This document shows positions 40,534-42,533 of a DNA stretch of 63,790 bases, one piece after another (the stretch's first letter is position 1; every line of letters starts with the position of its first letter). The stretch lies in contig MVRC01000004.1 of NCBI GenBank assembly GCA_002067865.1, forward strand, positions 1-63,790, given 5' to 3'. The notes beneath the pieces were generated by a model that did not search any database, was not told the origin of the DNA, and was given only the letters and a program-made list of their open reading frames with translations. Both the position numbers and the translations under genes were made by a program. This DNA is from Methanomassiliicoccales archaeon PtaU1.Bin124. GTDB taxonomy: Archaea > Thermoplasmatota > Thermoplasmata > Methanomassiliicoccales > UBA472.

Positions 40534-41169
40534 TCAGATATACCAGACCTGGGCCATGTCTATGTACTGGCTAGGCTCCATCTCGCGCAATGAGGCGGTC
40601 TCCACGTCGACCACCTCGACGCCATGGATGCGGGAGTTGATGATCTCCTCCTGGCTCACCGGAGGGCTGGTGTAATACATGTCGCAATAGCGTTTGATGA
40701 GGTTGAGGTCCGACTGCTCCCGGTCCCTGGGTGGCAGGGTGAAGAAGCGGGGAATGGGCATGATGTAATGGGGCGGTGCGGCCAGCAGGAACTTGTTGCA
40801 ATGATTGCTGTACCTGGCGATCTTCGAAGCGATGCGCGCCTTGATATAGTCCAGCGGGTCCAGGGCGTGAGCGGGCGGGACATATCCCGTCTCCACCTCG
40901 ATGATGACCGTGCCGTCTCCCTTCCTGCCATAGACGTCGCAGTTCAATCCAGCATCGATGGTATGCTCCAGATCGACATCGTAGCCGTCCTTTACCAAGT
41001 ACTTGGCCACGATGAGCTCCAGTACTGAGTGGTTGATCTTGAGGAGGTTCTTCTCTCTCAGGTCGATAAGGCGGTGCTCCAGGAACTCCATGCGGCGTAG
41101 CTCGTCCGCATCGCAATCGAGAATCAGCTTCGCCATCAGCTTGTCGAGGTCCTCTTGGAACTTGTCCAA
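40534..41169 (-). CDS. PD-(D/E)xK-like putative nuclease fold protein
   Basis: The protein has 211 residues. The helical N-terminus is followed by L-N-C-D-V-Y-G-R and T-V-I-I-E-V-E-T-G, a D ... E-x-E pattern as in restriction-endonuclease-like folds, with Glu-Thr where a Lys is usual. Then come helices with A-R-I-A-S-K-I-A-R-Y and P-R-F-F-T-L-P-P. It could be an active variant or an inactive relative. On the minus strand TTTAAACGG with AATTTATTTAAA lies about 20-35 bases before the ATG. No partner gene is evident. Confidence 0.55.
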   Translation of the reverse strand: MDKFQEDLDKLMAKLILDCDADELRRMEFLEHRLIDLREKNLLKINHSVLELIVAKYLVKDGYDVDLEHTIDAGLNCDVYGRKGDGTVIIEVETGYVPPAHALDPLDYIKARIASKIARYSNHCNKFLLAAPPHYIMPIPRFFTLPPRDREQSDLNLIKRYCDMYYTSPPVSQEEIINSRIHGVEVVDVETASLREMEPSQYIDMAQVWYI

Positions 41170-41887: not shown

Positions 41888-41988
41888 AGCGGACCTGCAA
41901 TTCAAAAACCCTGGATGATGAAAAGAGGGTCAGCTGATCCACGGAAGTGATGAGCCCTATGAGTGCTGACTCCGGGGGCAGGTCCGCT
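41888..41988 (+). ncRNA. Box C/D sRNA with two 12-nt guides and an enclosing stem
   Basis: Box C ATGATGA (41915-41921), box D' CTGA (41934-41937), box C' GTGATGA (41947-41953) and box D CTGA (41966-41969) are in order. Both guide spacers, 41922-41933 and 41954-41965, are exactly 12 nt, the hallmark of archaeal C/D sRNAs. CCCTGG before box C pairs fully with CCGGGG after box D (6 bp), and an outer 11-bp perfect stem AGCGGACCTGC / GCAGGTCCGCT (41888-41898 with 41978-41988) closes the structure. Such RNAs guide 2'-O-methylation by fibrillarin with L7Ae and Nop5. The D guide fits the anticodon loop around CAU, which would place the methyl on C34 of a tRNA with CAU anticodon; this is inferred. The 3' end touches the rusA stop codon on the other strand. 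Confidence 0.85.
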
Positions 41989-42533
41989 CAACCGTTCAGC
42001 CTTTTTACACTGATATGAAGGCCCGGGGCCTCGTCGCCGCAGCAATAGCTCTTCGAGGCGCTGATGCTGACCACCTGGGCATCATCCGGTATGAGCACAC
42101 CGGTTATCCCGTCCAGGACCGCCCTGATGAGCTTGTCGAGGTCAGGCCTCTTGGTGTTGAGGTTATGTTTCTTGGGAGTGGACTTGGGCTTCGTGAAGAC
42201 GAACTCCAGGCACACCTGGTAGCCGCAGCGGCGGTCGTCGCAGAAGAAGTTCATGCCGCGCGATTCGTTCGTATGCTGCGCCTCGGTCGCGATTCTTTGC
42301 CTCCACCGTTCGGTGTTGCGATTCCCATGCGTGGTGACGACCCGGTCCAGCTTCTTGATGTAGAACGATTTGGTGCTGCCCTGGGGGATCGGTTCTCCCG
42401 CAACGAAGAAATCGATCAGATCGGAATGGACGACGCTGCCGACCTTGGCGTCCAGGTTGAGGAAGTCCTCGACCGGGCTCTGCTCGTAAGAATCAGTGGA
42501 GAAATCTGAGTCGAACTCCAAGGTGCATCCCAT
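41988..42533 (-). CDS. RusA-family Holliday junction resolvase
   Basis: The protein has 181 residues. The RusA core begins near residue 40 (I-D-F-F-V-A-G-E-P-I-P-Q-G-S) and has the key acidic motif P-D-L-D-K-L-I-R-A-V-L-D-G-I-T-G-V and I-P-D-D-A-Q-V-V with the catalytic aspartates. The first 38 residues are an acidic extension not usual in the family. RusA is mainly carried by phages, so this may be a relic of a mobile element, though no other phage gene is near. Start ATG 42533; an AT-rich promoter is upstream. Confidence 0.85.
   Translation of the reverse strand: MGCTLEFDSDFSTDSYEQSPVEDFLNLDAKVGSVVHSDLIDFFVAGEPIPQGSTKSFYIKKLDRVVTTHGNRNTERWRQRIATEAQHTNESRGMNFFCDDRRCGYQVCLEFVFTKPKSTPKKHNLNTKRPDLDKLIRAVLDGITGVLIPDDAQVVSISASKSYCCGDEAPGLHISVKRLNG

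Follow-up and report, generated by a model that had tools for sequence, protein, structure and literature searches.

A probable dual-guide box C/D sRNA gene in Methanomassiliicoccales with predicted targets in elongator pre-tRNA-Met and helix 69 of 23S rRNA

The intron of archaeal pre-tRNA-Trp contains a box C/D RNA (Cm34, Um39). In Haloferax the box C/D RNA sR-tMet guides Cm34 of elongator pre-tRNA-Met, as relayed by papers that cite its description (Joardar et al. 2011, RNA Biol 8:782-791, via PMC4033218 and PMC6601510); as far as those citing papers go, this precedent agrees with an earlier note on the present DNA, which regarded Cm34 of elongator tRNA-Met as known in archaea. The intron of the Haloferax tRNA-Trp gene can be deleted without loss of viability (PMC4090602). 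A review describes Pyrococcus C/D sRNAs directed at position 34 in tRNA-Met, tRNA-Leu, and tRNA-Trp (PMC7994747), and in humans Cm34 of elongator tRNA-Met(CAT) is guided by the box C/D RNAs SNORD97 and SCARNA97 (PMC6601510). Nucleotide C1920 of 23S rRNA is 2'-O-methylated in bacteria by TlyA (PMC7317525), and helix 69 is described as a hotspot for predicted methylations among hyperthermophilic archaea (PMC4644070).

The locus presented here lies on contig 4 of an 18-contig, 2.2-Mb archaeal genome of the order Methanomassiliicoccales. The window, meaning the whole stretch of DNA that was analysed, is 63,790 nucleotides long. At 41888-41988 on the forward strand, boxes C, D', C', and D can be read in this order within one short RNA. 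This stretch very probably encodes an archaeal box C/D sRNA with two guides, which is either orthologous to haloarchaeal sR-tMet or a close functional equivalent of it. Its features and the basis for each are as follows.

41888..41898, + strand: 5' arm of the outer (terminal) stem, AGCGGACCTGC (sequence, fold, and stems of differing sequence at the equivalent place in relatives)
41899..41908, + strand: one-sided 10-nt internal loop between outer and inner stem (sequence)
41909..41914, + strand: 5' arm of the inner stem, CCCTGG, adjoining box C (sequence, duplex model)
41915..41921, + strand: box C, AUGAUGA; AUGAAGA in most relatives (sequence, homolog comparison)
41922..41933, + strand: D' guide, AAAGAGGGUCAG, 12 nt, of which 41923-41932 pair with 23S rRNA UGACCCUCUU, predicted N+5 position C1920 in E. 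coli numbering (target match)
41934..41937, + strand: box D', CUGA (sequence, homolog comparison)
41938..41946, + strand: D'-C' spacer, UCCACGGAA, with a short UCC/GGA hairpin (sequence; similar hairpins in relatives)
41947..41953, + strand: box C', GUGAUGA (sequence, homolog comparison)
41954..41965, + strand: D guide, GCCCUAUGAGUG, 12 nt, of which 41955-41964 pair with elongator pre-tRNA-Met ACUCAUAGGG, predicted N+5 position C34 (target match)
41966..41969, + strand: box D, CUGA; CAGA, CCGA, or CGGA in many relatives (sequence, homolog comparison)
41972..41977, + strand: 3' arm of the inner stem, CCGGGG (sequence)
41978..41988, + strand: 3' arm of the outer stem, GCAGGTCCGCT, the final base being common to the rusA stop codon (sequence, flank comparison)
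42002..42006, + strand: T5 run, a tentative transcription stop (sequence)
41988..42533, - strand: convergent gene of a RusA-family endodeoxyribonuclease (Pfam RusA; synteny kept in most relatives)

Much of this anatomy had been described in the earlier note, and it held when re-read from the sequence: the four boxes are canonical, both guides are 12 nt, and the 3' end does overlap the rusA stop codon on the opposite strand, by a single base. Both stems were also found as described. The inner stem (41909-41914 with 41972-41977) has 6 bp including one G-U pair, and the outer stem (41888-41898 with 41978-41988) consists of 11 perfect Watson-Crick bp. The fold is more stable than shuffled sequences (z = -2.65), with 2 of 200 shuffles equally stable. 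Among the 56 C-N8-16-D half-motifs of the genome, two tandem half-motifs with 12-nt guides occur solely here. Genes for fibrillarin and Nop5 are both present in the genome. At the gathering score Rfam assigned no family to the locus, its sole match being one tRNA elsewhere in the window. A scan for bacterial-type terminators found none near the locus. A promoter search gave no clear archaeal promoter here; a TATA-like motif is weak in this genome and clear in some relatives.

The sRNA is widely conserved. BLASTN detected homologs in 33 of 41 related genomes (a set that takes in the source genome itself), mostly with 79-90% identity over the C-to-D core, and the alignment usually extends approximately from box C to box D (query positions of about 34-92, equal to 41913-41971). 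Box conservation in relatives, which the earlier note had made a test of its assignment, is thus seen in this set. A sequence-only model of the core matched in 103 of 293 sampled genomes of the phylum, a count that takes in weak partial matches near the threshold. When 22 diverse cores were compared, little or no variation was seen in boxes D' and C', in the D guide CCCUAUGAGUG, and in most of boxes C and D; several of these cores were gathered with a pattern demanding the C'-D guide, and for that part only the BLASTN set is unbiased. The box C variant AUGAAGA and the box D variants CAGA, CCGA, and CGGA are presumably the two sides of the kink-turn U-U pair. As judged from sequence comparison, the conservation of the core among related genomes is far beyond chance.

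The named matches to the sRNA belong mostly to Methanomassiliicoccales and other Thermoplasmatota. Two matches (L128 and L165) are in contigs labelled as a Methanohalobium sp. MAG and a Desulfurococcales MAG; in L165 no C and D' boxes can be seen, and this match may have arisen by chance or from protein-coding sequence. In six loci, mostly from DHVE2 (L137, L154, L156, L180, L183, and L193), the Met D guide is kept and the D' guide ends in AGGGCG or CGGGCG, not GGGUCAG. At least some of the secondary matches of the core model are tRNA-Trp intron guides. In the f8 genomes G090, G122, and G243 the second match (L272, L273, and L274) is a box C/D RNA within an apparent tRNA-Trp intron, which the model matched through its C box and a GGGUCAG-like D' part.

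A total of 43 tRNA genes were found in the genome and each was read against the guides. Only elongator tRNA-Met(CAU) matches the D guide over 10 bp. The guide forms 10 contiguous Watson-Crick bp with ACUCAUAGGG, a segment which spans the exon-intron junction and consists of seven exon nucleotides (A31-A37) and intron nucleotides 1-3, with C34 at the N+5 position. The gene is located on contig 15 of the source assembly (G000), at 120509-120618 (L037:1501-1610), and contains a 35-nt intron. ARAGORN called it tRNA-Ser(cga), so elongator tRNA-Met could be overlooked when this genome is annotated automatically. In a reading of the sequence with the intron running from GGGAAAAU to GAA, between GUCGGACUCAUA and AUCCGA, its removal leaves a normal CUCAUAA loop. 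The earlier note had proposed that the D guide directs Cm34 of a CAU tRNA, and this is supported, the target now being named as the elongator precursor. Its caution that positions 31 and 39 would be left unpaired and that the target may differ no longer applies: beyond A37 the guide pairs with the intron, and the target nucleotides there are not part of the stem.

The remaining candidates for the D guide were rejected. Spliced tRNA-Met, initiator tRNA, and tRNA-Ile2(CAU) offer just 7 pairs each, one of which is G-U in the initiator and in tRNA-Ile2, and the predicted energy is -17.8 kcal/mol for the precursor versus about -8.2 kcal/mol for these three. Intron nucleotides 1-3 would therefore supply both strength and discrimination against the other CAU tRNAs. 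Nothing in 16S or 23S rRNA is comparable to 10 Watson-Crick bp. When the guide was shuffled (mononucleotide shuffles, with the tRNAs and 16S/23S rRNA as targets), the fixed 10-nt core found a perfect complement in 0.7% of cases. C34 of elongator pre-tRNA-Met is very probably the nucleotide that this guide would select for 2'-O-methylation.

The D' guide forms 10 contiguous Watson-Crick bp with UGACCCUCUU in the 23S rRNA of a complete genome of the same genus (G002). Its N+5 position corresponds to E. coli C1920 in helix 69, as anchored on the shared AACUAU. The site was read in this relative because the 23S contig of the source assembly (G000 contig 16, first bases, L082) ends at GGGGGUAACUA, within helix 69 and just before the C1920 site. 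The 16S piece of the source assembly also stops at a contig end, and the remainder of 16S and 23S rRNA was not found in that assembly. The earlier note had looked to a tRNA or rRNA complement of at least 9 bp, and for both guides it is 10 bp. Taken jointly, and with the register fixed on the known target type, the two matches are not the product of chance on this sequence comparison. Other targets for the D' guide were considered and rejected: its best runs among the 43 tRNAs depend on G-U pairs, and similarity to the tRNA-Met intron (GACCCUCU) exists in some relatives, is limited to ACCCUC here, and is not conserved.

It is nevertheless conceivable that the D' match to C1920 is coincidental and that the sole function is Cm34 of tRNA-Met, as in haloarchaeal sR-tMet. 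This would agree with the D guide being kept alongside other D' sequences in several relatives (family f2), in DHVE2, and in haloarchaeal loci. It is an improbable reading, because most of the order and other Thermoplasmatota lineages share an identical D' guide, AGGGUCAG (51 of the loci counted), because this guide is kept in two f6 genomes with a changed D guide, and because shuffled D' guides equal it (perfect complement of the fixed 10-nt core) in just 0.3% of cases. C1920 of 23S rRNA is very probably the second methylation target, as predicted from the guide.

Comparison of guides and introns suggests that the two evolve under a shared constraint. The sRNA and tRNA-Met genes were both read in 28 genomes, and in every one of them guide and target are exactly complementary along the 10 bp (ACTCATAGGG). 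Intron nucleotides 1-3 are GGG in all 37 distinct tRNA-Met genes, and from nucleotide 4 onward the introns vary. Guide nucleotide 1 and intron nucleotide 4 show no association across the genomes with both genes, so the constraint appears to end where the 10-bp duplex ends. Intron nucleotides 2-3 are also predicted to be paired in the splicing-site fold, where nucleotide 1 is usually unpaired, and their conservation is therefore not attributable to the guide alone.

Family f6 provides a possible switch. In genomes G029 and G032 (L268 and L269) the D' guide AGAAGAGGGUCAG is intact and GACCUUCUAGG stands in place of the D guide; the best match of this new guide among the rRNAs is CCUAGAAGG in 16S rRNA (9 bp, position 640 of the G002 SSU). 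The tRNA-Met introns of both genomes begin with AGG. In a third f6 genome (G035) no sRNA was found and the tRNA-Met intron begins with UGA. This suggests a small natural experiment favouring guide pairing as a cause of GGG, with a caveat that it concerns one family and possibly one event. Evidence on the opposite side comes from two other genomes (G004 and G008), which keep an intron-containing tRNA-Met and gave no sRNA match by BLASTN in their incomplete assemblies. Tentatively, and somewhat short of an even chance, intron nucleotides 1-3 may be an identity element against the two other CAU tRNAs that forces methylation before splicing, so that the guide would hold the intron start, perhaps the intron itself, across Thermoplasmatota while the same RNA sets Cm1920.

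Since the D guide covers C32-A37 and intron nucleotides 1-3, overlapping the predicted bulge-helix-bulge region, the sRNA might instead chiefly regulate splicing, with the guide on the exon-intron junction blocking the splicing endonuclease and methylation being secondary. This is very unlikely: the exact N+5 register on C34, the conservation of the boxes, and the Haloferax precedent all favour methylation. That the locus is an antisense or 3'-end element of the syntenic convergent rusA, whose stop codon the outer stem overlaps by one base, with box-like motifs arising by chance, has a negligible probability and was rejected, because the core persists in several relatives where rusA is about 370-490 nt away, the conserved portion is approximately box C through box D, and the motif is found in different surroundings in named genomes. 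The distance from box D to rusA is 20-42 nt in most relatives and about 90-490 nt in others, which makes the sRNA independent of the rusA overlap. A conserved 211-aa protein is encoded at 40534-41169 (- strand); its gene is syntenic with the sRNA in many relatives, where the protein has 55-81% identity, and it has no Pfam match at E 0.001.

The reading favoured here is the dual guide, and the earlier assignment to the box C/D class is upheld by boxes, guides, stems, conservation, and both target matches. The sRNA would assemble with fibrillarin, Nop5, and L7Ae. Its D guide would pair over 10 bp with unspliced elongator tRNA-Met (A31-A37 and intron nucleotides 1-3) and position C34 for 2'-O-methylation ahead of splicing. 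The D' guide would pair over 10 bp with 23S helix 69 and position C1920 for the same modification, and the terminal stem would close the sRNA and probably protect it. In this scheme we infer that the gene is transcribed, that the RNP assembles, and that both methylations take place, as well as their timing with respect to splicing.

The outer stem was further analysed in the flanks of 29 homologs, where the pairing of upstream with downstream sequence was compared with that of shuffled flanks. For 18 of the 29, no more than 10 of 200 shuffles paired equally well, compared with about 1.5 homologs expected at that level. The stems differ in sequence, for example AGCGGACCUGC/GCAGGUCCGCU here and UAGGACGGAGCC/GGCUCCGUCCUA in L054. 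Because they recur in the order with differing sequence, the outer stem is a feature of the lineage. The 11-bp stem that the earlier note described is real, and it is not an oddity of this genome. It may act in protection, end processing, or circularisation.

The closest known system is haloarchaeal sR-tMet, which, as described in the citing papers, is likewise a box C/D guide to the wobble C34 of elongator pre-tRNA-Met. A function of this kind on the tRNA side, acting on the precursor, is therefore already known. Loci in Haloquadratum and Halegenticoccus carry the same string of C', D guide, and box D. The shared string is 23 nt long, but as the target constrains the guide, convergence is possible (haloarchaeal tRNA-Met was not recovered). 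The differences are that the haloarchaeal D' region is without a guide to 23S C1920 and that the homologs from Methanomassiliicoccales typically have the long terminal stem. The apparent additions are the C1920 guide, present in much of Thermoplasmatota, an order-wide terminal stem, and comparative support for a guide constraint on the intron start. No published description of the C1920 guide, the order-wide stem, or the intron constraint was found in a partial literature search, in which Joardar et al. 2011 was represented by citing papers. An sR-tMet-like RNA is thereby extended from haloarchaea to much of Thermoplasmatota, with a complete predicted guide-target assignment for a conserved RNA which matches no Rfam family.

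The more distant systems share single aspects with this one. The Pyrococcus C/D sRNAs resemble it in their predicted target, the first anticodon position of tRNA-Met. The guide in the pre-tRNA-Trp intron shares the chemistry at C34 and an intron-containing precursor, but that guide is housed within the tRNA intron itself, whereas the present one has a gene of its own and the intron belongs to its target. For the persistence of tRNA introns, this suggests one concrete constraint, guide-RNA pairing across the exon-intron junction, which would be relaxed where the guide changed. SNORD97 and SCARNA97 differ in being eukaryotic and two partly redundant RNAs, and their described pairing is with the anticodon stem-loop region. 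Bacterial TlyA is a protein-only enzyme for which no homology is claimed; it is alike in chemistry and in its target (PMC7317525), as the second predicted target of this sR-tMet-like RNA is C1920, the nucleotide that TlyA methylates in bacteria.
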